A stretch of 64,000 nucleotides of DNA from Limonium bicolor. Its lineage: Eukaryota > Streptophyta > Magnoliopsida > Caryophyllales > Plumbaginaceae. The position numbers were made by a program, and so were the translations under genes. The notes beneath the pieces were generated by a model that was not told the DNA's origin, did no database searches, and saw nothing but the letters and a program-made list of their open reading frames with translations. Below, one piece after another: positions 38,210 to 64,000 of this stretch (its first letter is position 1; each line of letters begins with the position of its first letter). The stretch is from contig CM041776.1 in the NCBI GenBank assembly GCA_023374045.1, positions 323,169,925 to 323,233,924 on the forward strand, read 5' to 3'.

Positions 38210-38226
38210 CATAAGAAAGGAGTACC

Positions 38227-38412: not shown

Positions 38413-38429
38413 CATGAGAAAGGAGTACC

Positions 38430-41555: not shown

Positions 41556-43428
41556 TAAATATATACATGTTGTATTCATATTTCCGTAGAAAATCAATTA
41601 ACCGATCCATATATAGACGTGGGCTTGGGCCAGAGACCTGTCTGTCGATTGAGTCTTTTTCTGTGTATATCCTTTTCAGCTTTGTTTGAGATGAAAATCA
41701 AATGCACATGCTATAATATTAATAACTGAAAAGTAATACCCGCCTAACGGCTGCACGCATCCATTAGAAGGGGAAAAAGTTCGTCAAAAAGCTAGTTTCT
41801 TTTTGCATACCCGGTTACGGGACGTAACACAAGTCTAGGAGCGACCATATGAGCTACCGCTTACAGTATGTTATACTAATATATTGTCCACTCATTTGTC
41901 TAATACCGTATCCACACATTTTGTTTACCCCAATAATACAGACCACTTTATCGTCACTGTTATCTATAAAATCATGTACATTTTCTTTCTGTGAATAAGA
42001 TAAGGTCGTCTTTTTCCCACCATTCACCCCAAAGTCGGTTTTTTCCTTCTTTTACTATATATGCCTTTTTTTTGTGGAGCATTCTTCTTTAATGAAGCTG
42101 TTTTGGTCTTGTGGGGTTTTCTTTTCCACTACATTTAAACATGCTCCTCTGGTGGAAGATAATAGTGCTAGTATAAAGTTTGATGTATTGATATAAGTAA
42201 GTGTATAAGTATATTTTGTCACAGTAGATCGAACATTTTCATTAAAATGGGCTAGTTTTGACGTTCAGATTTCGGCCCATATATCCGCATATTCCCGCTA
42301 GTTCCTTTTTTTTTTCTTTTGACATGAGAAAAAAGTTCCTTAAATTTTTCGGTACCGGTAGGAGCAATATTAGTATGGATTGGATGGGTAAAAAAGCAGG
42401 TGCATTTAACCGAAACTAGAAACGTGATTATTTGGAATTTGAAGTAGCGGTATAATAGTGTGTTGTGATCCAAAACCAGAAGAGATAAAAGTTAAATCAT
42501 AAATATAAATAATAGAAATTATTGGCCATATAGCTATAGTGTGCTCCTAGAGATTATTGATCATTAATGCATGTTGATGCATGTTAGTGGGTTTAAGATT
42601 AAGAATCTGACTTCCATTCGGGTGTGGTTATGTGGCGACAAAATGGAGCTTAAGCCGCCAGTAATCGCTCTAAAAAACGAGTCTATATTGTAAAAAGAGA
42701 GGGAGAGAAACAGAGTTTTTTAACTAAACACTCAAAAAATGAGTAACTTAGCAAAATTAGAACGAAATTGTAAAATAAATCAATATAATAATAGTGGTAG
42801 AGTCAACTTGCATAGATTGTTATACAAAGTTTGTTGCACTTGCATAATATATAGAAGTCAAAAGATCTTTGGTTGATTTGGGTTTGTTTTTACTATGCCT
42901 TTATCAAAAAAAAAAAAAAAACCTCGAGAAAGGAGGCGAAAATGCATGATTGTACCGGTTAGTTATATATAGATCGATGTAGAACTGCTTTTCCTTCAAC
43001 ATTCGTTACATACGGCCAACAAATTGCAAAATATCCTCAACCTCGCATCGCAACCCAGCAATGATAAGAGAGCATTAATGAATCGTACGTACGAGCATGG
43101 CTACATCTTTTGTTGGCTAATGCAGTAGTATATGGTTAATATTGGGAACAAAATGCATTGCTGAAATCACGATATACCGGATCAACTCCATTCGTGATCA
43201 TATTTATCGTATTAGGAAAATGTATAAGATGTCACTATTTTTGGGCTAATTCAAGAAATATCATTGAAAAAAATAGAAAGTTAAGATATTTTAATAAAAT
43301 TTTCTCAAAATTATTAAAAGTCATTGACCGATATATATATATCTGTTAGTTAATAAACTATTTTGAAAATTCATCATCATCACAAGTTCAAAATTTATAA
43401 ACTTTAAATAATATAAAAGAATAAAAAC
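41556..43428. other. spacer, right arm, ending at a gap
   Basis: Collinear with about 9880-11900 in reverse, lacking the 255-bp block at 10107. A private stretch of about 75 bp lies near 41696-41770. No gene seen. Confidence 0.55.
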
Positions 43429-43928
43429 NNNNNNNNNNNNNNNNNNNNNNNNNNNNNNNNNNNNNNNNNNNNNNNNNNNNNNNNNNNNNNNNNNNNNNNN
43501 NNNNNNNNNNNNNNNNNNNNNNNNNNNNNNNNNNNNNNNNNNNNNNNNNNNNNNNNNNNNNNNNNNNNNNNNNNNNNNNNNNNNNNNNNNNNNNNNNNNN
43601 NNNNNNNNNNNNNNNNNNNNNNNNNNNNNNNNNNNNNNNNNNNNNNNNNNNNNNNNNNNNNNNNNNNNNNNNNNNNNNNNNNNNNNNNNNNNNNNNNNNN
43701 NNNNNNNNNNNNNNNNNNNNNNNNNNNNNNNNNNNNNNNNNNNNNNNNNNNNNNNNNNNNNNNNNNNNNNNNNNNNNNNNNNNNNNNNNNNNNNNNNNNN
43801 NNNNNNNNNNNNNNNNNNNNNNNNNNNNNNNNNNNNNNNNNNNNNNNNNNNNNNNNNNNNNNNNNNNNNNNNNNNNNNNNNNNNNNNNNNNNNNNNNNNN
43901 NNNNNNNNNNNNNNNNNNNNNNNNNNNN
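43429..43928. other. assembly gap, 500 N
   Basis: Exactly 500 N between inverted-arm spacer and the middle of a gypsy gag exon. The two sides are unrelated. Confidence 0.99.
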
Positions 43929-44253
43929 TGTGGAGGTGACCACCCAGGAGTGGACTGCCAAGGCAGGAAGGTCGAGTGCCGTTACTGCAAGAAGGGTCAC
44001 AGGGACTACGAATGTTTTTCTAACCCAGCAAGCCGTGTATACAAGGGAGGTAAGGGTTCACAGAGACCACCAGCCGCTGAGACTGGAGGATCCAGAGGAG
44101 GGCAGACACCTCAGACTAATACCTATACTAGGGGACCGGGAGGACAGCCATCCTCATCCGGGAGTCAAAAAGGGAAGGAGATAGTACCGGTTAGAAACAC
44201 CCTGTATACAGTGGGAACTCCAGGCGCCGAGACTAGCGCTCAGCGCGAATTCG
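43929..44253 (+). CDS. Gag zinc-knuckle exon, copy 1 (partial)
   Basis: The frame is open from the gap edge to the GT at 44254. It starts inside the first knuckle (CGGDHPGVDC) and contains the second, CRYCKKGHRDYEC: spacing C-x2-C-x3-H-x4-C, one residue shorter than the usual CCHC. A Gly/Pro/Ser/Thr-rich tail follows, to AETSAQREF. Such knuckles bind element RNA during particle assembly. This copy lacks the two-base insertion that breaks the same exon in copy 2, so it shows the exon in frame from knuckle to splice donor. Confidence 0.85.
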
Positions 44254-45206
44254 GTAAGCCTAGCACCTAGAATAAGAACATGATGTTGTGGATGTATGTT
44301 AATTATTACTCAGTCATTAAGACTTGTATGTGTGTTTCTGTGTGAAATAAAATCTGAAGAGACCTAATTTAGGAATCTCTCACTTAATAGGATGTTTCGA
44401 CATTTGTTTTCCCATACCTATGAGACCAAGAGCACCTGAGCCTATGAGCGAAGGTCGGGAACACCAAAAGAGTGCCAAGTACTTCGACCCGGCATGATCC
44501 TACTCAAGCAATATTTAGATTTAAATGAACAAAAAACATTGTAAATGTAGAAATTTGGGAGTAGGTCAGGGGGGATTTTATAATCCAGGATATAGTGGAT
44601 CAAAACTTAAATTGTATATGATGTGTATGGGTAAGGATTGGGATCCACAAACTAGGTTGTATAGTGAGGAAAGAAAGGTAGATGGGACACAATTCCTAGA
44701 ATACCTGATACTTTCCAAACCTTAGTGACTGAAGCGGTCAATTGCACAACAGTTAGAAACCAACCCCATTCCAGACATGAGAGCCAATATTTGTATAGCA
44801 AACTTCTATGAAAAAGGGGGGAAACTTGGGTTACACCAGGACCGGGATGAGTCTTTAGAACATTACCAAGGGGGTACCAGTCGTATCATTCTCCATAGGT
44901 GACAATGCTGAGTTTTTATACGGTGACCAGAAGAGGATGGACATGGCGAAAAAGATTATCTTAAAGTCAGGTGACGTGTTGATATTTGGTGGAGAATCGA
45001 GACTAGTTTACCATGGGATCAAGAGTATCAAGTTAAACACAGCCCCGTCAACCTTAGTGAACACTACCCATTTAAAACCTGGACGGTTAAATTTGACATT
45101 TAGGCAATATTGATGTAATTGGAGCTTGTATATGGGAATCGCTGGATTAATGAATGGCATTTTGCTACTTTGAGTTATTCACTATCTTACAAATTGTTAA
45201 CCCCAG
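44254..45206 (+). other. candidate spliceosomal intron C of gag-pol, copy 1, containing the AlkB domain
   Basis: The donor GTAAGCC directly follows the Gag frame, and the acceptor TTGTTAACCCCAG precedes the protease frame. The upstream exon ends one base into a codon, and the downstream exon supplies two bases, so joining restores an open frame into the protease. Inside, an AT-rich stretch (44280-44390) ends in a second acceptor, CACTTAATAG (44381-44390), just before the AlkB domain. Unspliced translation stops at TAG 44267-44269. Confidence 0.75.
44391..45113 (+). pseudogene. AlkB-like Fe(II)/2-oxoglutarate dioxygenase captured by the gypsy element, copy 1
   Basis: Family knowledge: AlkB proteins oxidatively remove methyl groups from nucleic acid bases. 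Seen here across small frame offsets: FDIC at the start, LRPGMILLKQYL, GGFYNPGY, MMCMGKDWDPQTR, ANICIANFYEKGGKLGL, HQDRDES with the HxD metal ligands (His codon 44834-44836, Asp codon 44840-44842), VPVVSFSIGDNAEFLYGDQ, SGDVLIFGGESRLVYHGI with the distal His (45012-45014), and the terminal PGRLNLTFRQY with both signature Arg. All catalytic positions are kept. The text resembles plant nuclear ALKBH1-like proteins more than viral AlkB. No internal intron is apparent, suggesting capture from cDNA. Frame offsets near 44478, 44700, 44745 and 44865 prevent one continuous frame as assembled. The TGA is at 45111-45113. Confidence 0.88.
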
Positions 45207-48200
45207 GCTTCGAGTCTAATGGTGGAGCGGTGCTGAATATACTGGACAAGACCGGGGCCAAGGATAAGGGGAAAGTTATCATGGGAACCTTTATGGTAAA
45301 TGGCGTAAGTGCATCGATACTGTTCGATTCAGGAGCGTCTCACTCCTTTATATCTTCTGCATCAGCAAGGAAGTTAGAGACAACCCCTGAACCTCTCTCA
45401 GATTTCCTAGTCACATTACCGACAAAGGAAAGAGTGAGGTGCACGAAACTACACACGGGAGTACGGATTAACATCATGGACGAAGAGTTTCATGCGGATT
45501 TAATTGAAATGGATAATTTAGGGTTCGACATCATCATGGGCATGGATTGGCTACAAAACAAGGGACGACTGCATTGTGCAGAACACCGATTACTACTGAA
45601 GAGCCCGAGAGGCAAAACGGTTTCATACCGCAGTATTCCAAAAGAACCTACCTTCAAGCTAGTATCTGCTATCACATTGGTAAAGAAGATGAAGAAGGGA
45701 CAGCCAGTCTATTTATGCTACGTCCAGGACTTGAGGCAAGAAGAGAAAACACAGACAGATATACCAGTCGTTTCAGACTTTCCGGATCTATTTCCTGAAG
45801 AACTACCAGGGATGCCACCCAAAAGAGAAGTGGAGTTCTCCATCGACTTATTACCAGGCACGGGACCAATTGCTAAAGCACCTTACAGGATGGCACCAGC
45901 AGAGATGAAAGAGCTGAAGATTCAGTTAGAAGATTTACTTGACAAGGGTTACATCAGACCTAGTGTATCACCATGGGGAGCACCGGTGTTGTTCGTGAAA
46001 AAGAAGGATGGTAGCATGCGACTATGCATTGACTACAGGGAGCTGAATGCAGTCACAGTGAAAAATAAGTACCCGTTACCACGGATTGATGATTTGTTCG
46101 ACCAATTAAGAGGCGCCACAGTTTTCTCGAAGATTGATCTGAGATCAGGATACCACCAGATACGGATAGCCGATGAAGACATAGAGAAGACAGCCTTCAG
46201 AACGCGCTACGGACATTACGAATTCACAGTTATGCCATTTGGATTGTCAAACGCCCCAGCTGTATTCATGGATCTTATGAACCGGTTGTTCAGGGAGCAG
46301 TTAGACTCATCAGTGGTTGTATTTATCGATGACATTTGGTATACTCTAAGACTAAGAACGAGCACGAGGTGCATCTGAGGCAAGTTTTGCAAACCATGAG
46401 AGAGAATCAGTTGTACGCCAAGCTTTCAAAATGTGATTTCTGGTTAGACAGTGTATCTTTTCTAGGGCATGTAATATCAGCCAGTGGAATATCTGTAGAC
46501 CCTGCGAAGATCGAGGCAGTTAAGACCTGGCCAAGACCAAAGACAGTGACAGATATCCGTAGTTTCTTGGGATTAGCTGGTTACTACAGACGATTTGTAC
46601 AGGATTTCTCCAAACTAGCAAAACCGATGACTAACCTGATGAAGAAAGATTCTCCATTTGTGTGGACAGCAGATTGTGAACAATCCTTTCAGATGCTGAA
46701 GGATTTACTGACGTCGGCACCGATACTCACTATACCAGAGGGGACCGACGGATTTGAAGTATATTGCGATGCCTCAGGAACAGGGATTGGGTGTACTTAT
46801 GCAGAATGGAAAAGTTGTTGCTTATGCATCACGACAGTTGAAGAAACATGAAGAGAACTATCCGACTCATGATCTAGAATTGGGAGCAGTTGTTTTCGCA
46901 CTGAAGATCTGGCGGCACTACCTTTACGGAGTGACAGTGACAGTTTATTCAGATCATAAAAGCCTTCAACATTTGTTCACTCAGAAGGAGCTTAACATGA
47001 GACAGAGGCGATGGGTCGAGTTTCTGAAGGACTACGATCGACCTCAGGTACAAGAGGGTAAAGCAAATGTAGTTGCTGATGCCCTGAGCCGTAGAGCCCA
47101 TTCCCTATTTGCCATGAGGAGACAACGCCTCATCGAGGAGATACGTTGTGCTCAGATTGGTGACCAATACATGAAAAATCAGACAGCAGTTGACTGACGG
47201 TATCTTTGAGAGACAGAAATATGATTTGTTCTTGGTGAAGATGGGTTGATCAGACTGAATGGCCGTTTATGCATTCCAGAGTCCAGCCCAGACTTGAAAG
47301 AAAAGATACTACAGGAGCTCATTGCTCATCACTATCAGTACACCCAGGGTCATCAAAGATGTATAAGGATTTGAAATTACATTCTGGTGGAGTGGTATGA
47401 AAAAGGATGTTGCAGACTTCGTGACGAGATGTATGACATGTCAGAAGGTGAAGTTTGAGCACCGGAGACCGGGCGGTTTAGTACAGCCGATGCCCATTCC
47501 ATATTGGAAGTTCGAGGATATATCCATGGACTTTGTAGTAGGTCTTCCACCGACTAGAGGAGGTGCTAACATGATATGGGTCATCGTTGACAGACTGACA
47601 AAGGTAGCTAAGTTCATTCCGATCAAGGACACATGGAAAGTCCCCAAGCTGGCAGATATTTTCCAGAGGGAGATTATCAGGTACCATGGTGTACCAAGTC
47701 TATAGTGTCAGACAGGATACAAGGTTTGTTTCCAGATTTTGGCAGCAGGTTCAGGAGGCATTGGGTACGAAGCTGAAGCTAAGTACAGCCTTCCATCCAC
47801 AAACAGATGGCCAGAGTGAACGAACGATTCAGACCTTAGAGGACATGCTTAGAGCTTGTGCCTTAGACTTCCAGGAAAGCTGGATAGATCGACTCCATCT
47901 GATTGAGTTTGCCTACAACAACAGCTATCATGCATCTATTCAGATGCCACCGTTTCAGGCATTGTACGGCAGACCATGTAGGACACCACTATGTTGGGAT
48001 GAACCCAGTGAGAATATCATCTTGGGCCAGAGTATCTAGACAATGAAAGAAGACATTGTACAAATACGCAAAAATATGAAGATAGCCCAGGACAGACAGA
48101 AGTCATATGCTGATGTTCGAAGGAGAGACCTTGAATTCGCAGTAGGCGATCGAGTCTTCCTCAGAGTTTCACCTATGAAAGGAATCTTTAGGTTTGGGCA

Positions 48201-48559
48201 GAAGGGCAAGCTTAGCCCGAAGTATGTAGGACCATACCTTATCACAGAGCGAGTGGGCCCATTAGCTTACAGATTAGACTTACCTGTTGAGCTTGGGAGA
48301 GTGCACAATGTATTCCACATTTCACAGCTTAAGCAGTATGTGCCTCATCCATCGCATGTTTTAGAGCCCGAGACACTCGAGCTAGATCCTACACTCAGAT
48401 ATGAGGAGACCCCAGTTCGCATCTTAGACTCCAAGACTAGGGAGACCAGGAACAAGACCATTAGAATGGTCAAAGTTCAGTGGTCAAATCATGATTGAGG
48501 AGGCGACATGGGAGTTAGAAGACTCCATGCGAGACAAGTATCCAGCACTTTTCGCTTAG
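45207..48559 (+). pseudogene. gypsy Pol (protease-RT-RNase H-integrase-chromodomain), copy 1, multiply frameshifted
   Basis: Protease: [13 protein letters not shown] near 45320-45358. [38 protein letters not shown] and VVFIDDI near 46314-46338, after which one T is missing and the frame breaks. RNase [12 protein letters not shown] (46760) and [12 protein letters not shown]. Integrase: [22 protein letters not shown], and [11 protein letters not shown] with the catalytic Glu. The chromodomain ([11 protein letters not shown] near 48460) is broken by a small deletion near 48495 and ends at TAG 48557-48559. Indels relative to copy 2 lie near 46335, 46794, 47040, 47115, 47175, 47228, 47315, 47385, 47697, 48035 and 48495. 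Non-functional as assembled, though the pattern fits uncorrected read errors. Confidence 0.92.
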
Positions 48560-49066
48560 CTTTGTGTATACTTGTGTGGGGTACGTGGGCGTAACCCTTT
48601 TTAAGGGGGGTAGAGCACCACATGCGACTTGCATATCTGCGGTCTATCTTTGGTTTGTACTTGGTTTTTGATTGGTTGTTGCGCATGTGTGCAATTGTTT
48701 GTATGAATATTTGGTTGCATTTTGCAACAATAAGTGTTGGTGTGTCCTATGTGACACTTGGTTGAATGATTTATGGAATTACTTATTTACCTTATGATAT
48801 GTTCATTTTTCCTACAATCACACAAGGGAATTACTGTCAAGGGTTTACGCCTCTGCACTCTGTAGGACTGAGGATTTGGTATTGCACTTGTGCAGTGAGG
48901 ACTTGTGGGATAGCTAGGAAGTATGGACACTCGTTGCTTCACAATTATTAAACTGTTTATACTGTTACTTCTACATACTACTTTGAATTGTGTACAAGGG
49001 ATAGATATGAGGAACTTGATTCCATAGGAATGCACTAGTATAAGTTATGACTTCGGGACGAAGTCC
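48560..49066 (+). other. gypsy 3' untranslated region, copy 1
   Basis: About 500 bp between the Pol stop and the polypurine tract, nearly identical to 60046-60560. No ORF conserved between the copies. Confidence 0.7.
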
Positions 49067-49081
49067 TTTTAAGGGGGAGAC

Positions 49082-52000
49082 TGAAATACCCCTAACATTT
49101 AAATAATTAAATAATGATAAAATATATTATTTATGGGATTATTAAACCCTAAAGAGAGTATATAAAAACTCAGGCGTTAGGAACGCACATAAAATTCCTT
49201 AAGGTCAAAAACATGCGTTAAAGCCCGACCTTAAGTAAATAAATTATATAAGCTATGAACAACATATAAAATCAACCAAGGATCATTATGTGACCTTGGA
49301 AACACGAATCCACAGTTTGAACTGAGTAAAAATACGAGATACCCGGGAATTCTCTTAAAGGCCCCTTAAGGCCCGAAAGTCCCGGAAATACCATTTAAAT
49401 TAAAATAAAGTATTACACCTCATTTAAAATGCTTAATAATACCATAATGAACATTTAAGACAAAGTTATCAAGATAAATTCTCAGTTAAAGACAAAATAC
49501 TCGGGGGAGTTTCTTAACGCTCCTTTTTGCTCGGTTAGCCCGAGAATTGTGTTCTAAGTGGGTATGACCCCATATAACCCAATGTAATACCTTAAAATAT
49601 TATTGTTGACTATAAACAATGTCAATAAACACTTGGAACACATAGCGACTAATTAATTCTTATAAAAATTTTTAAAGCACAAAACCGCACCTTCGGGTGT
49701 CATGAAAATGCGTTTTACGCAATTACCTTGAAGTTTTTGAGTAGCCATGAATTAATAGACTTAAAAGTGGATAAAATGACCATCTAAATTAATTGATGTC
49801 AGTACTAAATTCATTGTATAATAGGGGGCGATTTTTGGGACAAAAAGTTACCGAAAATCAGCATTTTTACCTTAAAACTTTCATCTTTTATCATATTAAA
49901 AATGTACCAATTAAATGCTGGAACCTATTATATATATTAATATGGTCTTAGTACAATATATTGTAACAAAAATCAAATTAAAAATCAAACCCATCTGGTC
50001 CTCCATTTCATGCGCCAATATAGGTGAATTTTAGACAATTTTGCTTCAAAAAAATTGTCTTATGATATTATAACTCACCAATTATGTACTATATAATTAT
50101 GTAACAAATAATTCTGGTAATATAGGCCCCATTCGATTTTCCCTGCAGAAAAATAATGAACATTAATTCATACCAAGACAAAGGAAATAAATCCAATCTA
50201 GCCTACACATTTGACTAGCTTTTAAACAAAATACAGATATATTGGCTCATGGCTGCCGATTTTGACATAAGTAAAAGGGAGCTTGATTGCTCCAATTGTT
50301 GGTCAATAAAACATATGCCTAACAAGACAAAAATCCATTGTTTCCTAGCCTATGCTGTCCGATTTTACAAGGAAAAAAGGGGTTTTAATTGCCTCATTTA
50401 TAATTCAAAAAACACTAACCTAACACACATTCTATCTTGTCTCCAATCAAGCAAAGAAATCAATTGTCATCTAGCATTATACCACCGATAATCATGAGCA
50501 AAAGAGGGACATGATTAGCTTGTTTATTGACTTCAAAAATTCAAGAAGACAACTATCATCTACTCCCTTTGTCTCCTAGCTTTTATTATCAAATAAATCA
50601 CCATTATCCCCTCTTGAATCAGCCGAAAATGTCCAATGAGATTTAAGCCAAATTCAGTCAATTAATCAGAAATAAGACATAAAATAATGCACAAAATAAT
50701 ACCAATTATTCCAAAATAATCATTGTTTCTCACCTTAATAAGCATACGAGAGCTTGCCTTCCCTTGCACATATCAACCGTGGTAAGCTCTCCCTTTCCTC
50801 CTCTCTTCTTCTTCTTCCTTGTTCATTCAATTCCTAAGAGCTACTAAGCTCCATTAATGGTGTTTTAATTCCTAACACCATTTTAATGTAATTTCCTAGT
50901 TAAATCAATCAAGTCTTGAAGCAAGAAATCATCCTAGCATTTCCTACAATTTTCGCCAAGCACATATGTTCCAAGGAGGTTCCTAAATTCAACAACAACA
51001 CAAGGAACAACAAGATCAAGTTAAGGTATATTTTCATGTTGAAAATCCTAGTAAATTACCTTAAGCAATTTTCGAAATATTAGAACTTCTAAATCCATGT
51101 TCTCTTCATTATTTCATGAAGGAAACTTGGATCTACAATCATCCCAAGGTGTACCAAAAATACCTTGTTAAATTCCTAAGGTAAACTCTTGTAAAAATTC
51201 CTACAAATATTATTTATAAATTCTTGTTAGAAGCCTAACAAATAAATCTCCTAATGTTTATAAGGGCCGAAAATTCTTCATCAAGGAAACATTTGGAGAG
51301 CTTGGAATTCAAGGAGAAATCAAGTACAAGAATTGTCTTGATTTAAGGAGTAAGTAAAACAATTAAGATTTATTAAACTTGAGTTTATTTTAAGCTCCAA
51401 TTTTGGTATAAAATTTTGTATAAACTCTACAAATATTAAGGCCGAAAAACATTGGAGTAAAATGTCAAGGAAATAATTTGTGGCATATAAGGTAAGGTTA
51501 TTACCTTATATATATTTATGTGTCACAAAAATTAATTATGCTACTCAAATAATTAAACCGAAATGCCTAAGAATAAAAGGTTCTATTTTGAGTTTATAAT
51601 CATTCTAAGTCATTAGCATAATTTTTAGAAGTGTTATATGGCTTACATACAATTATATGTATTTATTATAAGGTTTAAAGCAAGTTTTAAAACCTTTGGT
51701 GAAATAAATTGAAGCCGAGAGTAATATGTGAAATTTGGTGAGTTTTAACATATGTATAAGTGTATTAACTTATATTATAATTTTTGGGAATATTAAAAAT
51801 AGCTACAAGTATTTAAATGGCTATTTTGAATTATGTGGTTAAAATGTAAATTTTGAAAAGTATGGGTGTTTTAATTAATTACCGAGAGCATAAGGGGTAA
51901 TTTGGTGTATTTAAAGTATAATATAAGATAGGAATTTATATTATGAATTTTGGTAAATTTAAATAAGTGTTTAAGTTAAGAATAACATTTAATAAAGTTT

Positions 52001-54088
52001 TGGGGCTATTTTGTAATTAATTGAAAGTTTAAGGTTTTACCGAGAATATAAATGAATTTATGGGTATGTGAAGTATTAATTAAGAAATTAAGTCTTGGTC
52101 AAAGTGTTGACTAAAAACTTTGGGTTAAAATGATTTATGACATAAAATATTAAGTTTATAAAAGTTTTGGGGTGAATATGTAATTTAGAATATAGATAGA
52201 AAACCGAATTTAAATTGGGGCGGTTATGTAATTTGTGAAAATATAAGGGTATTTTCGGTATTTAAGAAAATTAAATATTAAAACTATAGTTTTAAGATAA
52301 TATGTAACTTATATATTTTAGGGATTTGTGAATAAAGGAAATGTTTACAAAAACGAAACTATAAATAAGTATATTATGATTTTCGAAAACTAATATAAAA
52401 TGTAATTATTAAAAACTATGTGGTTAATTAGTAAATTATAGAAGTTATATGGTTATTTGATAATTTATAAAGTTGTTGGGTACAAGATATAAATACCAAA
52501 GTATTAAGATGGTTTTGGTAATTTAAAGAAAGGATTAAGATTATGTAATACAATGTGTTATGATATTAAATGGAGAATAAAATAAGTTTATAAAATAAAG
52601 GTGGTTATAATATGAATAATTATGATATGATGTAGATGATAAGTGGAAATAATTATGGCTATATAATTAATGGGTTAAAGGTGTACCGTATAAATTCATT
52701 ATCACATGTGAACTCCACATAAAATGATGAACTGTTAGGTTATCTAGAACTACTGTTAAATAACAGGGGAAATAAATAACATACAGGGGCTAATATACAA
52801 GAATAAACCTGTGATAACTGTACTAAAGTATTTAGTAGACGGTTATATTAATAATACACGTTATTGTATGTAAATAACAGCGTACGGAAAGAGTTACTAA
52901 GGAATGCAAGCTAGCAATTACCCCGGTGAACGGTATGTTAATTGTGTGGTCTGAATGTCCTAAGGATTATCCTGAGGTCCAGACATTATGTGTTTAAATG
53001 TTTAAGAACGATATCTATGATTTTATGTGAATGTATTATACGTGGTGTTGCTTAAACTGTTGCGTTGTATTATACGCGAAAGTCCTGTGACTAAAAGTTT
53101 GTACATCTAAACTGTAAAAAGGAGACTAACTGACCTTCAGGTATTATGAACCTAACAAAGGTCTAACGTTATAGTCTTAATTTGAGTACTATGTTACTGA
53201 CAAAAAGGACTAACTTATTATGAGAGGAAATCCGGATCGTTTCGACTTTCTGGTTGCGCATCGTGATCACTACGAGAGACTTCAATGGGGAGTCACTCAA
53301 AGGAAATCCATCAGCCACATTCGGGGATGGCGGAATGCACTGCCGTTGGTGCACAGTTTCGACCGAACGGTCAATATTTATCCAGGGCCATAAGGTCAGC
53401 TGGTAACGGTTCCCTTGGAACCCAGTGAACATAATGTCAGTCTTTCACAGGTTATTAAATGGATGGTTAAAGGTTAAGGGTCATGAGACCCACTAACAAG
53501 TTCAATTGTTAAATATTTACATCTTGTCTGTGTGGATTATTGTTGATGTGTATATCATACACTTTGTTGCAGGTGGAATGTTATGTGATTGCTCAGTGTT
53601 TAGTATTTCTATTATCCTTGTAAACCGGATTATCTGTAACGAATCTAATATCAAGATGGCTAAAACGACTTAAGGAAATCTAGACGACTTAGGGCCACAT
53701 TTAGCATACCAGCATAGTTTGCTGAGCCCTTCATTGGGCCAAACATTTCAGGTCATTGAAGAATACACAAGCCGGAGTGCGGGAAAACAGGGTAGCAACT
53801 GTGTTTTAATAAACACCTGTCGTTATGTTATATACTCTATTTGGAGGTTGTTGTATTTTATTTAGTTGCTCATTTAGTTTGCATTTGGTCTGTAATAAGT
53901 AGTGTGCTCAGTATCTCTTCATCACAGCGTTGTTTAGTTGATGGATAGAGTTTGGATGCCTTGTTGCTCACAAGGGTGAGTAACGGCGTGTAACACCAAG
54001 TTTAGATAGTTTTAATTTCCGCTGCGACGCTATTTATTTTACTACGACTCGCGACGTTTATTATAGGTTTAGGATTAGGGGTGTTACA
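49082..54088 (+). repeat. gypsy LTR of about 5.0 kb, shared by copies 1 and 2
   Basis: Begins TGAAATACCCCTAA after a polypurine tract and ends TTAGGGGTGTTACA just before a primer binding site, so the ends are TG...CA with an inverted 8-10 bp match (CCCCTAA/TTAGGGG). It therefore serves as 3' LTR of copy 1 and 5' LTR of copy 2. Length is 5007 bp, at the long end for plant gypsy elements. It is AT-rich for most of its length, with a GC-richer block near 53225-53420. A TATAAAA lies at 49161. No conserved gene was recognised inside; an open stretch at 50249-50491 is shared in its first 30 codons by the LTR at 60577 but then diverges. Confidence 0.92.
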
Positions 54089-54092: not shown

Positions 54093-54104
54093 TGGTATCA
54101 GAGC
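54093..54104 (+). other. primer binding site for initiator tRNA-Met
   Basis: TGGTATCAGAGC, the standard plant LTR-retrotransposon primer site complementary to the 3' end of initiator methionine tRNA, lies four bases after the LTR end. A short hairpin (GCGGAGTACCGCTC region) follows. Confidence 0.95.
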
Positions 54105-54310
54105 GGAGTACCGCTCTGATGAAGGATACTGAGTCAAAAACAATGAGCATAGGAACATGGGATAACGGGGAACGCCTGTGAGGATTCGTAACTTAGAAGA
54201 AAACCCTAGGGATCTATATTTTTCTGCTAGCAGTTAACTTTACTTACTTGTTGTGATTGTGTGTAATACGGTGTATCACCGAGTAGTAATTATAGTATAT
54301 TATACTATAG

Positions 54311-55710
54311 ATGTCTGGAGGAAGAAGAAGAGGGGAGCAGGACGAGGTGGAGCCCCACCAGCTGATGTCCCGGAAATACCAGGCCTAGCAGAGGCCATGG
54401 CCGCCTTCGCCACACAACTAGGAGCACAAGTTGCAGGAGCCATACCCCACCCGCCACAGCCCAGGGAGACTAATTGGTTAAAGAGTGTGGTTGATGCACG
54501 AGTCCCAACATACTCAGGGGAACCAGACCCCGCCGCTCTGGAGAAATTCATCGTCGAGCACCAAAAAGCTTTCAGGGCCGTCAGGGTCCCAGAGAACCAA
54601 CAGGTTGACATTGCCGCGTATAACTTGAAAGATGCAGCCGATACTTGGTGGCGGTCGGTAGAGGACCACCATAGAGCCACACCAGACTTTGGGTGGACGG
54701 CGTTCGTGAATGTGCTACGAGAGAAATATTACCCCGAGCACTTGAAGCAGAGGAAGCGGCAAGAGTTTGAGACTCTACTCCAGGGGAGTCAGACGTCGAC
54801 CAATACTACGCGCGATTTACCAGCTTGCTTGATTTCATCCAGGAGTTGACTACTCCGATGTTGTGAAGATTCAGAAATTCAGGGGAGGTTTACAGTTCCG
54901 TATCCAGAGTGCAATGGGAGCAATCCGTTCAACACCATTCAAGAATGCTATGATGCAGCATCAGCAACTGAACTAATGATACAGTCGAGGGATGAAGCCC
55001 AGGGTAAAAGAGGAAAAATACGGAGGGACAAGAAGGTGGAGGGCCACATCTGGCGGATCCTACAAGAAGGGGAAGTAAGGAAACCTTTACTTAAGAGAAA
55101 CACCTATTTATTGCCTACACTTAGTTGGATCACTAACCTAAACCCTCTACAGGGGATTCTTTGATAAGAAGAAAGGGAAGAAGGATTTTCAAGGACAGAA
55201 GGCGAAGGAGCAGGTTCCTCGCCAGACCGGCACGGTCATAGATGCACAGCCGCTGAGATCGGCACCACCCAGGGGTAAGAATACCCACCTCTCATTAACC
55301 AAACATTCTAGCTATACCTTACTAAACCACGTTTGTGAACAGCGGGCAATAAGCCAACCCGGCGCCATTACTACTGTAAGCGCTGTGGAGGTGACCACCC
55401 AGGAGTGGACTGCCAAGGCAGGAAGGTCGAGTGCCGTTACTGCAAGAAGGAGGTCACAGGGACTACGAATGTTTTTCTAACCCAGCAAGCCGTGTATACA
55501 AGGGAGGTAAGGGTTCACAGAGACCACCAGCCGCTGAGACTGGAGGATCCAGAGGAGGGCAGACACCTCAGACTAATACCTATACTAGGGGACCGGGAGG
55601 ACAGCCATCCTCATCCGGGAGTCAAAAAGGGAAGGAGATAGTACCGGTTAGAAACACCCTGTATACAGTGGGAACTCCAGGCGCCGAGACTAGCGCTCAG
55701 CGCGAATTCG
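54311..55710 (+). CDS. gypsy Gag, copy 2, in three exons with small frame errors
   Basis: The likely start is the ATG at 54311 (MSGGRRRG), 206 bases after the primer site. A one-base offset near 54333 leads into GRGGAPPADVPEIPGLAEAM. The retrotransposon Gag domain follows: ARVPTYSGEPDPAALEKF, NLKDAADTWWRSVEDH, FVNVLREKYYPEHLKQRKR and, after an offset near 54785, DQYYARFTSLLDFIQE. Exons are 54311-55074, 55153-55274 and 55343-55710, separated by GT-AG introns that keep the frame. Exon 3 has two zinc knuckles, CKRCGGDHPGVDC and CRYCKK..HRDYEC; here two extra bases near 55450, absent from copy 1, break the second one. Gag forms the particle and binds the RNA. Confidence 0.85.
55075..55152 (+). 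other. candidate spliceosomal intron A in gag (78 nt)
   Basis: Begins GTAAGG, ends CCCTCTACAG, with a good plant branch-site match CACTAAC about 20 bases before the acceptor. The upstream frame SGGSYKKG ends two bases into a Lys codon. The downstream exon completes it and continues GFFDKKKGKKDFQG without a stop. Without splicing, the frame stops at once (TAA inside GTAAGG). Confidence 0.75.
55275..55342 (+). other. candidate spliceosomal intron B in gag (68 nt)
   Basis: Begins GTAAGAAT, ends TTTGTGAACAG, with TTACTAAAC as a possible branch site. The upstream frame (PLRSAPPR) ends one base into a codon, and the downstream exon continues AGNKPTRRHYYCKRC straight into the first zinc knuckle. 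Confidence 0.75.
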
Positions 55711-56674
55711 GTAAGCCTAGCACCTAGAATAAGAACATGATGTTGTGGATGTATGTTAATTATTACTCAGTCATTAAGACTTGTATGTGTGTTTCTGTGT
55801 GAAATAAAATCTGAAGAGACCTAATTTAGGAATCTCTCACTTAATAGGATGTTTCGACATTTGTTTTCCCATACCTATGAGACCAAGAGCACCTGAGCCT
55901 ATGAGCGAAGGTCGGGAACACCCGAAAGAGAGTGCCAAGTACTTCGACCCGGCATGATCCTACTCAAGCAATATTTAGATTTAAATGAACAAATAAACAT
56001 TGTAAACAAATGTAGAAATTTGGGAGTAGGTCAGGGGGATTTTATAATCCAGGATATAGTAGTGGATCAAAACTTAAATTGTATATGATGTGTATGGGTA
56101 AGGATTGGGATCCACAAACTAGGTTGTATAGTGAGGAAAGAAAGGTAGATGGGGCACAATTCCTAGAATACCTGATACTTTCCAAACCTTAGTGACTGAA
56201 GCGGTCAGATTGCACAACAGTTAGAAACCAACCCCATTCCAGACATGAGAGCCAATATTTGTATAGCAAACTTCTATGAAAAAGGGGGGAAACTTGGGTT
56301 ACACCAGGACCGGGATGAGTCTTTAGAGTCAATTACCAAGGGGGTACCAGTCGTATCATTCTCCATAGGTGACATGCTGAGTTTTTATACGGTGACCAGA
56401 AGAGGATGGACATGGCGAAAAAGATTATCTTAAAGTCAGGTGACGTGTTGATATTGGTGGAGAATCGAGACTAGTTTACCATGGGATCAAGAGTATCAAG
56501 TTAAACACAGCCCCGTCAACCTTAGTGAACACTACCCATTTAAAACCTGGACGGTTAAATTTGACATTTAGGCAATATTGATGTAATTGGAGCTTGTATA
56601 TGGGAATCGCTGGATTAATGAATGGCATTTTGCTACTTTGAGTTATTCACTATCTTACAAATTGTTAACCCCAG
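55711..56674 (+). other. candidate spliceosomal intron C of gag-pol, copy 2, containing the AlkB domain
   Basis: 964 nt, from GTAAGCC to GTTAACCCCAG, equivalent to 44254-45206 in copy 1. The junction is one base into a codon upstream and two bases downstream, giving an in-frame Gag-protease join. An internal acceptor (TTAATAG, ending at 55847) precedes the AlkB region and is also compatible with the Gag frame. Confidence 0.75.
55848..56581 (+). pseudogene. AlkB-like Fe(II)/2-oxoglutarate dioxygenase captured by the gypsy element, copy 2
   Basis: Same domain as in copy 1 and collinear over its full length, with HQD metal ligands (His codon 56302-56304, Asp codon 56308-56310), GESRLVYHG and PGRLNLTFRQY, and TGA at 56579-56581. 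The central part (MRANICIANFYEKGG to VVSFSIGD, 56245-56373) is one open frame. Offsets at the FDIC/LRPGM junction (near 55938) and after FLE (near 56167) are shared with copy 1. Those in GDMLSF (near 56373) and at ILVENRD (near 56453) are private, and copy 1 is intact there. The shared ones suggest the common ancestor, or the consensus used to build both, already carried them. Confidence 0.87.
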
Positions 56675-59600
56675 GCTTCGAGTCTAATGGTGGAGCGGTG
56701 CTGAATATACTGGACAAGACCGGGGCCAAGGATAAGGGGAAGTTATCATGGGAACCTTTATGGTAAATGGCGTAAGTGCATCGATACTGTTCGATTCAGG
56801 AGCGTCTCACTCCTTTATATCTTCTGCATCAGCAAGGAAGTTAGAGACAACCCCTGAACTTCTCTCAGATTTCCTAGTCACATTGCCGACAAAGGAAAGA
56901 GTGAGGTGCACGAAACTACACAAGGGGGTACGGATTAACATCACGAATGAAGAGTTTCATGCGGATTTAATTGAAATGGATAATTTAGGGTTCGACATCA
57001 TCATGGGCATGGATTGGCTACAAAAATACAAGGGACGACTGCATTGTGCAGAACACCGATTATTACTGAAGAGCCCGAGAGGCAAAACGGTTTCATACCG
57101 CAGTATTCCAAAGGAACCTACCTTCAAGCTAGTATCTGCTATCACATTGGTAAAGAAGATGAAGAAGGGACAGCCAGTCTATTTATGCTATGTCCAGGAC
57201 TTGAGGCAAGAAGAGAAAACACAGACGGACATACCAGTCGTTTCAGACTTTCCGGATCTATTTCCTGAAGAACTACCAGGGATGCCACCCAAAAGAGAAG
57301 TGGAGTTCTCCATCGACTTATTACCGGGCACGGGACCAATTGCTAAAGCACCTTACAGAATGGCACCAGCAGAGATGAAAGAGCTGAAGATTCAGTTAGA
57401 AGATTTACTTGACAAGGGTTACATCAGACCTAGTGTATCACCATGGGGAGCACCGGTGTTGTTCGTGAAAAAGAAGGATGGTAGCATGCGACTATGCATT
57501 GACTACAGGGAGCTGAATGCAGTCACAGTGAAAAATAAGTACCCGTTACCACGGATTGATGATTTGTTCGACCAATTAAGAGGCGCCACAGTTTTCTCGA
57601 AGATTGATCTGAGATCAGGATACCACCAGATACGGATAGCCGATGAAGACATAGAGAAGACAGCCTTCAGAACGCGCTACGGACATTACGAATTCACAGT
57701 TATGCCATTTGGATTGTCAAACGCCCCAGCTGTATTCATGGATCTTATGAACCGGTTGTTCAGGGAGCAGTTAGACTCATCAGTGGTTGTGTTCATCGAC
57801 GACATTTTGGTATACTCTAAGACTAAGGACGAGCACGAGGTGCATCTGAGCAAGTTTTGCAAACCATGAGGAGAATCATTGTATGCCAAGCTTTCAAAAT
57901 GTGATTTCTGGTTAGACAGTGTATCTTTTCTTGGGCATGTAATATCAGCCAGTGGAATATCTGTAGACCCTGCGAAGATCGAGGCAGTTAAGACCTGGCC
58001 AAGACCGAAGACAGTGACAGATATCCGTAGTTTCTTGGGATTAGCTGGTTACTACAGACGATTTGTACAGGATTTCTCCAAACTAGCAAAACCGATGACT
58101 AACCTGATGAAGAAAGATTCCCCATTTGTGTGGACAGCAGATTGTGAACAATCCTTTCAGATGCTGAAGGATTTACTGACGTCGGCACCGATACTCACCA
58201 TACCAGAGGGGACCGACGGATTTGAAGTATATTGCGATGCCTCAGGAACAGGGATTGGGTGTGTACTTATGCAGAATGGAAAAGTTGTTGCTTATGCATC
58301 ACGACAGTTAAAGAAACATGAAGAGAACTATCCGACTCATGATCTAGAATTGGGAGCAGTTGTTTTCGCACTGAAGATCTGGCGGCACTACCTTTACGGA
58401 GTGACAGTGACAGTTTATTCAGATCATAAAAGCCTTCAACATTTGTTCACTCAGAAGGAGCTTAACATGAGACAGAGGCGATGGGTCGAGTTTCTGAAAG
58501 ATTACGACATCGACCTCAGGTACAAAGAGGGTAAAGCAAATGTAGTTGCTGATGCCCTGAGCCGTAGAGCCCATTCCCTATTTGCCATGGCAGGAGACAA
58601 CGGCCTCATCGAGGAGATACGTTGTGCTCAGATTGGTGACCAATACATGAAAACTATCAGACAGCAGTTGACTGACGGTATCTTTGAAAGACAGAAATAT
58701 GACTTTGTTCTTGGTGAAGATGGGTTAATCAGACTGAATGGCCGCTTATGCATTCCAGAGTCCAGCCCAGACTTGAAAGAAAAGATACTACAGGAAGCTC
58801 ACTGCTCATCACTATCAGTACACCCAGGGTCATCAAAGATGTATAAGGATTTGAAATTACACTTCTGGTGGAGTGGTATGAAAAAGGATGTTGCAGACTT
58901 CGTGACGAGATGTATGACATGTCAGAAGGTGAAGTTTGAGCACCGGAGACCGGGCGGTTTAGTACAGCCGATGCCCATTCCATATTGGAAGTTCGAGGAT
59001 ATATCCATGGACTTTGTAGTAGGTCTTCCACCGACTAGAGGAGGTGCTAACATGATATGGGTCATCGTTGACAGACTGACAAAGGTAGCTAAGTTCATTC
59101 CGATCAAGGACACATGGAAAGTCCCCAAGCTGGCAGATATTTTCCAGAGGGAGATTATCAGGTACCATGGTGTACCGAAGTCTATAGTGTCAGACAGGGA
59201 TACAAGGTTTGTTTCCAGATTTTGGCAGCAGGTTCAGGAGGCATTGGGTACGAAGCTGAAGCTAAGTACAGCCTTCCATCCACAAACAGATGGCCAGAGT
59301 GAACGAACGATTCAGACCTTAGAGGACATGCTTAGAGCTTGTGCCTTAGACTTCCAGGAAAGCTGGATAGATCGACTCCATCTGATTGAGTTTGCCTACA
59401 ACAACAGCTATCATGCATCTATTCAGATGCCACCGTTTCAGGCATTGTACGGCAGACCATGTAGGACACCACTATGTTGGGATGAACCCAGTGAGAATAT
59501 CATCTTGGGGCCAGAGTATCTAGCAAATGAAAGAAGACATTGTACAGATACGCAAAAATATGAAGATAGCCCAGGACAGACAGAAGTCATATGCTGATGT

Positions 59601-60045
59601 TCGAAGGAGAGACCTTGAATTCGCAGTAGGCGATCGAGTCTTCCTCAGAGTTTCACCTATGAAAGGAATCTTTAGGTTTGGGCAGAAGGGCAAGCTTAGC
59701 CCGAAGTATGTTGGACCATACCTTATCACGGAGCGAGTGGGCCCATTAGCTTACAGATTAGACTTACCTGTTGAGCTTGGGAGAGTGCACAACGTATTCC
59801 ACGTTTCACAGCTTAAGCAGTATGTGCCTCATCCATCGCATGTTTTAGAGCCCGAGATACTCGAGCTAGATCCTACACTCAGATATGAGGAGACCCCAGT
59901 TCGCATCTTAGACTCCAAGACTAGGGAGACCAGGAACAAGACCATTAGAATGGTCAAAGTTCAGTGGTCAAATCATGATGTTGAGGAGGCGACATGGGAG
60001 TTAGAAGACTCCATGCGAGACAAGTATCCAGCACTTTTCGCTTAG
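56675..60045 (+). CDS. gypsy Pol (protease-RT-RNase H-integrase-chromodomain), copy 2, nearly intact
   Basis: After the intron C acceptor the frame enters [11 protein letters not shown]. One base is missing near 56741, then it is open to 57869. Protease has [14 protein letters not shown] has [25 protein letters not shown] and the catalytic FIDDILVYS (57800-57826). Three one-base deletions near 57850-57880 give a brief stop before the same frame resumes at 57879. RNase [31 protein letters not shown] and VVADALSR. Integrase: HHCC finger ([16 protein letters not shown]), then [14 protein letters not shown] and GQSERTIQ as the DDE triad. A frame offset near 59520 precedes the terminal chromodomain ([20 protein letters not shown], then [15 protein letters not shown]). 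A chromodomain targets integration to chromatin with specific histone marks. Confidence 0.92.
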
Positions 60046-60576
60046 CTTTGTGTATACTTGTGTGGGGTACGTGGGCGTAACCCTTTTTAAGGGGGGTAGA
60101 GCACCACATGCGACTTGCATATCTGCGGTCTATCTTTGGTTTGTACTTGGTTGTTTGATTGGTTGTTGCGCATGTGTGCAATTGTTTGTATGAATATTGG
60201 TTGCATTTTATGCAACAATAAGTGTTGGTGTGTCCTATGTGACACTTGGTTGAATGATTTATGGAATTACTTATTTACCTTATGATATGTTCATTTTTCC
60301 TACAATCACACAAGGGAATTACTGTCAAGGGTTTACGCCTCTGCACTCTGTAGGACTGAGGATTTGGTATTGCACTTGTGCAGTGAGGACTTTGTGGGAT
60401 AGCTAGGAAGTATGGACACTCGTTGCTTCACAATTATTAAACTGTTTATACTGTAATACTTTGGACATACATACATTTGAATTGTGTACAAGGGATAGAT
60501 ATGAGGAACTTGATTCCATAGGATACACTAGTATAAGTTATGACTTCGGGACGAAGTCCTTTTAAGGGGGGTAGAC
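60046..60576 (+). other. gypsy 3' untranslated region and polypurine tract, copy 2
   Basis: Non-coding, matching 48560-49081. It ends with the tract TTTTAAGGGGGGTAGAC (60560-60576), which primes plus-strand synthesis and directly precedes the LTR. Confidence 0.8.
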
Positions 60577-63500
60577 TGAAATACCCCTAACATTTAAATA
60601 ATTAAATAATGATAAAATATATTGTTTATGGGATTATTAAACCCTAAAGAGAGTATATAAAAACTCAGGCGTTAGAAACGCACATAAAATTCCTTAAGGT
60701 CAAAAACATACGTTAAAGCCCGACCTTAAGTAAATAAATTATATAAGCTATGAACAACATATAAAATCAACCAAGGATCATTATGTGACCTTGGAAACAC
60801 GAATCCACAGTTTTGAACTGAGTAAAAATACGAGATACCCGGGAATTCTCTTAAAGGCCCCTTAAGGCCCGAAAGTCCCGGAAATACCATTTAAATTAAA
60901 ATAAAGTATTACACCTCATTTAAAATGCTTAATAATACCATAATGAACATTTAAGACAAAGTTATCAAGATAAATTCTCAGTTAAAGACAAAATACTCGG
61001 GGGAGTTTCTTAACGCTCCTTTTTGCTCGGTTAGCCCGAGAATTGTGTTCTAAGTGGGTATGACCCCATATAACCCAATGTAATACCTTAAAATATTATT
61101 GTTGACTATAAACAATATCAATAAACACTTGGAACACATAGCGACTAATTAATTCTTATAAAAATTTTAAAAGCACAAAACCGCACCTTCGGGTGTCATG
61201 AAAATGCGTTTTACGCAATTACCTTGAAGTTTTTAAGGAGCCATGAATTAATAGACTTAAAAGTGGATAAAATGACCATCTAAATTAATTAATGTCAGTA
61301 CTAAATTTATTGTATAATAGGGGGCGATTTTTGGGACATAAAGTTACCGAAAATCAGCATTTTTACCTTAAAACTTTCATCTTTTATTATATTAAAAATG
61401 TACCAATTAAATGCTGGAACCTATTATATATATTAATATGGTCTTAGTACAATATATTGTAACAAAAATCAAATTAAAAATCAGACCCATCTGGTCTCCA
61501 TTCCATGCGCCAATTTGGGTGCATTTTAGACAATTTTTGCTTCAAAAATTGTCTTATGATAATGTAACTCACCAATTATGTACTATATAATTATGTAACA
61601 AATAATTCTGATAATATATGACCCCATTGTCGATTTTCCCTGCAGAAAATAATGAACATTATTCATACCAAGACAAAGAAAATAAATACAATCTAGCCTA
61701 CACATTTGACTAGTCATTTAAACAAAATAATACAAGTAGATATATTGGGTCCTTTGTCATATGGCTGCCGATTTTGACATGGGTAAAAGGGAGCTTGATT
61801 GCTCCAATTGTTGGTCAATTAAACATATGCCTAACAAGACAAAAATCCATTGTTTCCTAACCTATGCTGCTGTCCGATTTTTACATGGAAAAATGAGTTT
61901 TAATTGCCTCATTATTAAGTCAATGAACATCAACCTAACATACATCATCTCTTGTCTTCAATCAAGCAAAAATCTGTTGTCCTCTAGCACATTAATCAAC
62001 CGTAAAAGACATGAGAAATCAAAGACTAGACAATTGGAAAATCAAAAGAGAAAGCAATTATCTACTTCCTTTGTCTCCTAGCTTTTATTATCAAATAAAT
62101 CACCATTCATCCCCTCTTGATTCAGCCGAAAATCAGTCCCAATTTGGAGACTTTTGTAGTCAAGGTTCTAGTCAAATTAATCAAAAAAAATAAGACATAA
62201 AAATAATGCCATAAACTTACCAATTATTTCCAATCTTATTCCTTCTCCTTCTTGTCATAAAACACCACCGTAGCCTTCATTTCTTCTTGCCCTCACCCAC
62301 CGAATTGGTAAGCCTATCTTGCTTATTCCTTTCTTCTTCCTTTGTTCATTTAATTCCTAAGAGCTACTAAGCTCCATTAATGGTGATTAAATTCCTAACA
62401 CCATTTTAATGTAATTTCCTAGTTAAATCAATCAAGTCTTGAAGCAAGAAATCATCCTAGCATTTCCTACAATTTTCGCCAAGCTCATATGTTCCAAGGA
62501 GGTTCCTAAATTCAACAACAACACAAGGAACAACAAGATCAAGTTAAGGTATATTTTCATGTTGAAAATCCTAGTAAATTACCTTAAGCAATTTTCGAAA
62601 ATATTAGAACTTCTAAATCCATGTTCTCTTCATTATTTCATGAAGGAAACTTGGATCTACAATTATTCCAAGGTGTACCAAAAATACCTTGTTTAATTCC
62701 TAAGGTAAACTCTTGTAAAAATTCCTACAAATATTATTTATAAATTCTTGTTAGAAGCCTAACAAATAAATCTCCTAATGTTTATAAGGGCCGAAAATTC
62801 TTCATCAAGGAAACATTTGGAGAGCTTGGAATTCAAGGAGAAATCAAGTACAAGAATTGTCTTGATTTAAGGAGTAAGTAAAACAATTAAGATTTATTAA
62901 ACTTGAGTTTATTTTAAGCTCCGAATTTTTGGTATAAAATTTTGTATATAACTCCTACAAATATTAAGGCCGAAAAACATTGGAGTAAAATATCAAGGAA
63001 ATAATTTGTGGTATATAAGGTAAGGTTATTACCTTAAGATATATATTTATGTGTCACAAAAATTAATTATGCTACCCAAATAATTAAACCGAAATGCCTA
63101 AGAATAAAAGGTTCTATTTTGAGGTTATAATCATTCTAAGTCATTAGCATATTTTTTAGAAGTGTTATATGGCTTACATATAACTATATGTATTTATTAT
63201 AAGGGTTAAAGCAAGTTTTAAAACCCTTTGGTGAAATTAAATTGAAGCCGAGAGTAATATGTGAAATTTGGTGAGTTTTAACATATGTATAAGTGTATTT
63301 ACTTATATTATAATTTTTGGGAATATTAAAAATAGCTACAAGTATTTAAATGGCTATTTTAAGAATTTATGTGGTTAAAATGTAAATTTTAAAAAGTATG
63401 GGGTGTTTTAATTAATTACCGAGAGCATAAGGGGTAATTTGGTGTATTTAAAGTATAATATAAGATAGGAATTTATATTATGAATTTTGGTAAATTTAAA

Positions 63501-64000
63501 TAAGTGTTTAAGGGTTAAGAATAACATTTAATAAAGTTTTGGGGCTATTTTGTAATTAATTGAAAGTTTAAGGTTTTACCGAGAATATAAATGAATTTAT
63601 GGGTATGATGAAGTATTAATTAAGAAATTAAGTCTTGGTCAAAGTGTTGACTAAAAACTTTGGGTTAAAATGATTTATGACATAAAATATTAAGTTTATA
63701 AAAGTTTTGGGGTGAATATGTAATTTATGAGAATATAGATAGAAAACCGAATTTAAATTGGGGCGGTTATGTAATTTGCGAAAATATAAGGGTATTTTCG
63801 GTATTTAAGAAAATTAAATATTAAAACTATAGTTTATAAGATAATATGTAACTTATATAAAATTTTAGGGATTAAATTGTGAATAAAGGGAAATGTTTAC
63901 AAAAAACGAAACTATAAATAAGTATATTATGATTTTCGAAAACTAAAGGGTATAAAATGTAATTATTAAAAACTATGTGGTTAATTAGTAAATTATAGAA
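60577..64000 (+). repeat. gypsy 3' LTR of copy 2, cut by the window end
   Basis: 3424 bp matching the first part of the 5007-bp LTR at 49082. Identity is high except for a block at about 62100-62345 (against 50595-50830 in the other LTR), where sequence and length differ strongly. By comparison the LTR should end about 1.6 kb beyond the window. Confidence 0.92.

Follow-up and report, generated by a model that had tools for sequence, protein, structure and literature searches.

An AlkB demethylase domain has been described in one family of plant long terminal repeat (LTR) retrotransposons. The Phalaenopsis element Gypsy_Pa_2799, a 25.5-kb member of Ogre/Tat with a tRNA-Arg primer and with gag-pol in one open reading frame (ORF), encodes an ALKBH5-type AlkB as the C-terminal part of a second, separate reading frame, ORF2 (565 aa), and N6-methyladenosine (m6A) demethylase activity has been reported in vitro (PMC9289625). 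Besides the two Phalaenopsis, none of the 121 genomes screened in that study carried the domain, in a screen that by its own account is poor for low-copy families. Here we describe a Ty3/gypsy chromovirus in a 64,000-nt stretch of Limonium bicolor DNA (the whole of which is referred to as the window) whose ALKBH1-type AlkB gene lies within an intron between gag and pol (55711-56674, the segment). Both are plant Ty3/gypsy elements of high copy number whose PF13532 AlkB domain keeps its catalytic residues. The Limonium element differs in its chromodomain, in a primer site that we take to be of the Met type, and in an ALKBH1-type gene of ~228 codons in the gag-pol intron; judged by the description of the orchid element, its chromodomain, AlkB type and intron location set it apart from the Gypsy_Pa_2799 family. 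Because the element lineage, the AlkB subfamily and the position all differ, the Limonium AlkB is most likely a capture independent of the orchid case. AlkB in an LTR retrotransposon is therefore known in kind, and a first-pass annotation of this sequence was wrong in supposing that no such element had been described. What is new is the chromovirus, the ALKBH1 type, the location in a gag-pol intron, and the purifying selection indicated by codon-level divergence.

Other systems offer partial parallels. The plant nuclear ALKBH1 proteins (rice OsALKBH1 and proteins named DNA N(6)-methyladenine demethylase ALKBH1C/1D-like) are closest in sequence, with the OsALKBH1 structure 5xeg being the best Protein Data Bank (PDB) match of the element AlkB (6.6e-79), but the element version is intronless, has ~10 fewer loop residues, bears a signature of its own and forms a separate clade. 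In plant RNA viruses, AlkB sits inside the replicase. Such viruses (Alpha-/Betaflexiviridae and Closteroviridae, as cited in PMC9289625) resemble the Limonium element by description, in that a mobile or viral genome has its own AlkB, and differ in being RNA viruses. According to the available portion of PMC12786077, plant LTR elements are generally without introns, the exceptions being Ogre and EVADE. In both Ogre and EVADE/ATCOPIA93, which are LTR retrotransposons of other lineages, a functional intron gives rise to alternative messages, and that portion describes no host-derived coding gene in the intron. The main text of PMC6317226, as far as available, contains no occurrence of AlkB, and no further AlkB-bearing chromovirus or AlkB in an LTR-element intron was found in the literature searched, which had preprints and most subscription journals outside its scope.

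Identity and state of the AlkB gene

The window contains two tandem copies of the element, and all features given here are on the forward strand. In copy 2, positions 55711-56674 are the exact bounds of a GT..AG intron, with GTAAGC on the donor side and TTAACCCCAG at the 3′ end, whose removal would join gag and pol in phase 1. Within it, the AlkB gene runs from ATG to TGA at 55901-56581. The same intron of copy 1 is at 44254-45206 and its AlkB gene at 44444-45113. The element is a Ty3/gypsy chromovirus, as indicated by gag, by the protease (PR), reverse transcriptase (RT), RNase H (RH) and integrase (IN) order, and by the chromodomain (PF00385, 6.8e-6); AlkB is placed between gag and protease.

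Four of the seven stop-free AlkB pieces match PF13532 in Pfam, at 44859-45110 (E value 1.9e-23), 56200-56430 (1e-12), 44729-44899 (2.8e-8) and 56444-56578 (1.6e-7), whereas the N-terminal pieces 44525-44722, 55897-56085 and 56016-56189, each searched alone, gave no Pfam match. The piece at 44859-45110 also matches 5xeg (3.1e-30), and a 228-codon open copy from elsewhere in the genome matches PF13532 over profile positions 1-194 (2.3e-47). ALKBH5 is absent among the 21 sequences matched with the element AlkB at E values up to 1e-3; in the resulting ALKBH1-type assignment ALKBH5 was compared by search rank, and ALKBH9/10 were not compared directly. These matches bear out the proposal of the first-pass annotation that a plant ALKBH1-type AlkB domain lies between gag and protease of a chromovirus, and the search against plant ALKBH proteins that it called for gave a significant match to OsALKBH1. 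The reading frame is, however, broken in both copies, and that annotation mentions neither this nor the fact that the segment can be spliced as an intron. In copy 2, a single frame read across 55848-56582 contains 16 stops, such that the domain is readable in pieces only, and in copy 1 the C-terminal 84 codons are readable at 44859-45110. The breaks are partly different between the copies.

Amplification of the AlkB-bearing element

We searched the 2.92-Gb genome (2686 contigs, comprising C1 to C8 and small contigs) with the segment and scored the best 40 of 5037 candidates. All 40 matches, namely the two in the window and 38 other places, cover the whole segment (39 at query positions 1-964 and one at 2-964) with 88-100% identity, and they are located on C1, C2, C3, C5, C6 and C7. 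The AlkB frame is open in 13 of them, each of which retains the HxD pair and the distal His. A protein query made from the last exon of plant ALKBH1, for which the best 150 of 35041 candidates were scored, yielded four exons of the host type, all on C3 and with 69-82% identity, plus 146 other matches at 60-65%. We take the latter, by identity, to be of the element type, and 12 coincide with places among the 40 copies. In 66 of the 146 the open frame is 228 codons or longer, with two of these having one stop inside the match.

AlkB was thus amplified together with the element, a conclusion that follows from the 40 genome matches carrying the segment rather than from the two window copies. The first-pass annotation had drawn it from the latter, which form a tandem with one LTR and are weak evidence. 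The opposing possibility that it named, a private insertion in these two copies with other copies lacking the domain, disagrees with the 40 of 40 scored matches that span the segment. A count of places with and without the domain, also suggested there, gave 40 of 40 scored matches with it and at least six places without it, at least one of them by loss and the rest as one separate lineage.

The flanks of 10 copies were fetched for LTR comparison. Four have LTR pairs over 5.1-5.2 kb, with 51, 64, 86 and 42 mismatches (0.8-1.7%); of the remaining six, four have partial LTR pairs and two have none. Target-site duplications (CTATG, GTAAC and TTTAG, identified by eye) flank three of the four copies with full LTR pairs, and none is clear in the fourth. 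Assuming a substitution rate of 1.3e-8 per site per year, the insertions with full LTR pairs are about 0.3 to 0.7 million years old. Three further pairs of elements are spaced by 11.6-11.7 kb (C7:197146314/197158008, C2:351211476/351223165 and C2:189838131/189849773), making four such pairs among the 40 places when the window tandem is included. This spacing corresponds to one LTR plus an internal region, which suggests that LTR-sharing tandems probably recur in the genome.

Codon-level constraint on AlkB

Among the 780 pairs formed by all 40 copies, AlkB exhibits 0.042, 0.042 and 0.119 substitutions per site at codon positions 1, 2 and 3, and the non-coding 5′ part of the intron exhibits 0.093. 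Variable columns (minor count of at least 2) are distributed over the codon positions as 30, 33 and 86 in AlkB (chi-square p 2e-9), as 20, 13 and 13 in the intron 5′ part (p 0.34), and as 7, 8 and 4 in the tail that follows the AlkB stop (p 0.5), with the independence of the related copies being overstated in these values. The skew is strong in the second (0.028, 0.044, 0.129) and last (0.038, 0.028, 0.136) thirds of the gene, and it is also seen in the 27 broken-frame copies alone (0.058, 0.051 and 0.165 for 84 distant pairs). Omega among the 13 open copies is 0.186 (95% interval 0.126-0.265) and for the five closest pairs is 0.35; the PR-RT stretch, compared across 11 open copies, has an omega of 0.12. 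This pattern indicates purifying selection on the AlkB protein in the lineages that make new copies.

The same signature bears on the length of the gene. The open frame is exactly 210 codons from a Met at MILLK in each of the 13 open copies. An ATG lies 54 bases further upstream in 40 of 40 copies, and the intervening sites differ by 0.027, 0.013 and 0.111 per site at codon positions 1, 2 and 3. Because this upstream ATG is always present and the coding signature extends to it, the gene is probably 228 codons long.

Evidence for splicing of the intron

The donor sequence GGTAAGC is present in 38 of the 40 copies and every copy has the acceptor TTAACCCCAG, while exon positions 2 to 4 upstream of the donor are strongly variable (per-column divergence of 0.26 to 0.43). 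With the exon ends joined (90 + 120 bases), phase 1 has no stop in 25 of the 40 copies, and in no copy is phase 0 or phase 2 free of stops. If the intron is retained, the gag frame ends at a TAG 15 bases into it (55725-55727 in copy 2), which is kept in 40 of 40 copies by alignment and in 39 at a fixed offset.

A query with the joined exons, for which the best 40 of 2897 candidates were scored, returned 34 half matches and at least six contiguous intron-free copies, in each of which the exons meet precisely at the predicted splice sites. The stretches fetched for these six are free of intron and AlkB sequence, and in four of them the longest open frame spans the junction (276 codons in the copy L135). 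In a tree of the exon flanks (46 rows), L135 is nested in the AlkB-bearing subfamily (support 100/97), to which it is near-identical over 1199 columns, and the other five form one separate lineage. A single clade of all six was rejected (approximately unbiased (AU) test, p 1.8e-66). Given its exact loss at the junction and its nesting among AlkB-bearing copies, the best explanation for L135 is that a spliced RNA was reverse-transcribed, and this copy indicates that the intron is precisely removed in vivo. L136-L140 (C8:103.63-103.71M, C1:212.08M and C6:237.56M) represent a related lineage without the AlkB intron that is partly clustered on C8.

The intron also contains a putative second 3′ splice site (TCTCTCACTTAATAG-then-G, 55833-55847 in copy 2) whose use would produce an in-frame Gag-AlkB fusion. 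This candidate, at 55847|55848, has CTAAT upstream, a pyrimidine-rich TCTCTCAC and an AG, and the sequence AATAGG is present in 39 of 40 copies. From this site to the AlkB ATG, the Gag-fusion frame is stop-free in 40 of 40 copies and the other two frames in 0 of 40, an argument that spans 53 bases only and is modest by itself. Divergence drops from ~30 bases upstream of the site. A second 3′ splice site at 55847/55848 is therefore plausible.

Origin and relatives of the AlkB gene

A search with the C-terminus, followed by an alignment search, identified P0001, P0002, P0106, P0107 and P0108 as the five closest proteins from other sources. All five read through the plant-gene intron site LHQ|D and are without ~10 residues of a loop. 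Among the 120 pol matches listed of 7963, none is on a contig of 26621, 23054 or 9956 bases, the lengths used to look for a link between these proteins and retroelements. They form one clade with the window C-terminus (100/99); with six open copies the clade support is 87/84, which is below the usual 95 mark. The element clade, which has its own signature KRMD.A.KI.LKSGDVL, is separate from the angiosperm genes (87/84), and an origin inside the angiosperms is not rejected (p 0.379). For a structural model of P0106, the best of five (pLDDT 89; others 84, 65, 38 and 34), the top match in a fold search is 5xeg, ‘The structure of OsALKBH1’ (TM 0.92, 52% identity). ALKBH5 appears among the 50 matches listed at TM ~0.5 and 14-15% identity.

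The ALKBH1-type gene of the host plant itself, L134, is found as three match blocks, interrupted at EQV|K and LHQ|D, and has the full loop. Recent capture from this gene was rejected, because L134 keeps two introns and the full loop and groups with the angiosperm genes, albeit at a weakly supported fork (84/52). A bacterial origin was rejected by the tree, in which green plants and Acidobacteriota, the only bacteria in the trees, are divided by a fork with support of 100/99 and the element clade falls on the green-plant side. The Acidobacteriota AlkB proteins L004-L009 are the best bacterial matches, with 41-47% identity to the element clade over near full length. An alignment search of GTDB genomes with the clade gave 70 loci at 29-47% identity, all titled bacteria, and the same approach gave three untitled IMG/VR loci (33-37% identity). 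The AlkB piece and the pol piece alone had no match in IMG/VR, nor did the AlkB piece among phages.

Alternative explanations

We consider it likely that a chromodomain Ty3/gypsy family captured an intronless ALKBH1-type AlkB, which has been kept by purifying selection in the gag-pol intron and acts on the element's own nucleic acid. The selection and the intron location would point to a mobile element that profits from erasing chemical marks from nucleic acids. Several observations weigh against this interpretation. The 40 copies are one mutually related family taken by score, not a random sample, and the p-values for selection inherit this relatedness. The exact GRLNLTFR motif is carried by 11 of the 13 open copies, and the initial third of the gene shows less codon skew than the rest (0.060, 0.054, 0.096). 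The tail from the AlkB stop to the acceptor (56582-56674), with 8% gapped cells, diverges by 0.052 per site, nearly as little as positions 1 and 2, perhaps because of branch point and splicing signals. The five intron-free copies of the separate lineage may represent the ancestral state, or the intron may have been lost from them as it was from L135. Finally, the AlkB ATG is preceded by several other ATGs downstream of the gag stop, making simple re-initiation at the AlkB start doubtful.

If AlkB were instead a functionless host fragment amplified only through the activity of the element, then broken frames would be no surprise, and both window copies and 27 of the 40 copies overall are without a full open AlkB frame; gene fragments are, moreover, known in LTR elements. 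The threefold codon-position skew, present across the whole set and when the broken copies are taken alone but absent in the adjoining non-coding part, and the omega among open copies largely refute this explanation, and among the five intron-less relatives P0106 retains the full 210 codons and P0107 retains 196, even though P0001 and P0108 end early and P0002 is partial. A passenger gene is therefore quite improbable. A stronger, though still unlikely, competitor is that the intron itself is selected as a device for setting the Gag:Gag-Pol ratio, with AlkB being secondary or acting on host RNA or DNA. The splice sites and the intron TAG are indeed among the most conserved features, and intron-free copies occur at six places among the best 40 scored rows, but the codon-level constraint on AlkB reflects selection on the protein too. 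The segment and the tandem could also have been created by draft scaffolding and mixed haplotypes, given the gaps at 27904-28403 and 43429-43928, the inverse near-copies flanking the first of these, the start of copy 1 at a gap, and single-base indels typical of long-read drafts. However, the segment, its bounds and its flanks recur at 40 places, three further pairs share the 11.6 to 11.7 kb spacing, and target-site duplications flank three of the four copies with full LTR pairs. For the AlkB segment an assembly artefact is refuted, and as a general explanation it can hardly be entertained.

A possible mechanism

Under the interpretation that we favor, a captured AlkB that serves the element, spliced RNA would yield Gag-Pol, and unspliced full-length RNA would serve both as the genome to be copied and as the Gag message, with translation ending at the stop just inside the intron. 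AlkB might be made from the unspliced RNA by re-initiation, or from a Gag-AlkB splice form. The protein could then remove N6-methyladenine (6mA in DNA) or 1-methyladenine from element RNA, or 6mA and alkyl lesions from single-stranded cDNA, and by removing methyl groups from its own nucleic acid the element may evade host decay or silencing. Single-stranded DNA (ssDNA) intermediates may be as likely a substrate as RNA, because rice ALKBH1 is reported, in the available part of PMC10469495, to have 6mA demethylase activity on ssDNA.

A more speculative arrangement, which we regard as tentative and on balance doubtful, is a three-way switch. The unspliced intron would provide Gag and genomic RNA, the far splice site Gag-Pol, and the near site (55847/55848) a Gag-AlkB fusion packaged with the RNA; AlkB, which would be produced only where the intron is not fully removed, would take adenine methylation off element RNA and so favor retention of its own intron, in an epitranscriptomic feedback loop. 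The one support for such feedback is the report, in the available part of PMC8948141, that ALKBH5, when overexpressed, promotes the retention of introns in HPV16 E6 mRNAs.

Organization of the window

The window consists of draft plant sequence interrupted by three 500-N gaps, two of them at 27904-28403 and 43429-43928. Positions 43929-64000 are a single contig, the first 8.5 kb of which is repeated from 55384 to the window end with 96% identity (222 mismatches and 78 indel events). This repeat is a tandem of one retrotransposon in which both copies use one LTR (49082-54088, ~5.0 kb, TGAAATACCCC...GGGGTGTTACA), and, as the LTR is common to both, two independent insertions are not in view. The element order is LTR, TGGTATCAGAGC primer site, gag, pol with chromodomain, polypurine tract and next LTR. 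Copy 1 has no 5′ end, since the contig begins inside gag at the scaffold gap, and its truncated internal region occupies 43929-49081.

In copy 2, the primer binding site TGGTATCAGAGC is read at 54093-54104 and is presumably of the initiator tRNA-Met type. The gag frame (54253-55727), which is broken, includes a capsid-like domain (PF03732, 1e-8 on 54238-54846), and zinc-knuckle-like text can be read although no Pfam match for the knuckle was obtained. The pol frame (56675-60045), likewise broken, encodes protease, RT, RNase H, integrase and chromodomain (PF08284, PF00078, PF17917, PF17921, PF00665 and PF00385). It is followed by the polypurine tract AAGGGGGGTAGAC (60564-60576) and by the 3′ LTR (60577-64000), which is cut by the window end. 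The long LTR, the Met-type primer site and the chromodomain would fit the Tekay lineage, which we take to be a candidate.

Elsewhere in the window, 10359-23321 and 28404-43177, on the contigs flanking the gap at 27904-28403, are inverse near-copies in seven blocks of 86-99.7% identity, likely misplaced haplotigs or an inverted duplication. A third LTR start of the same family (27515-27903; 90-91% identity with many indels), cut by the scaffold gap, is a separate insertion with its own flank.

Implications

With the Limonium element as a second, most likely independent, capture of AlkB by a plant LTR retrotransposon, the orchid case is no longer a curiosity but part of a pattern. Plant retroelements probably face a real barrier in adenine methylation or in the repair of alkylated nucleic acid. 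The placement of the gene in an intron, where it is kept for genomic RNA and removed for Gag-Pol, suggests a coupling of the eraser to replication. Together with the ssDNA 6mA activity of the rice relative, as reported in the available part of PMC10469495, the finding makes it testable whether retroelements counteract adenine methylation of DNA as well as of RNA.
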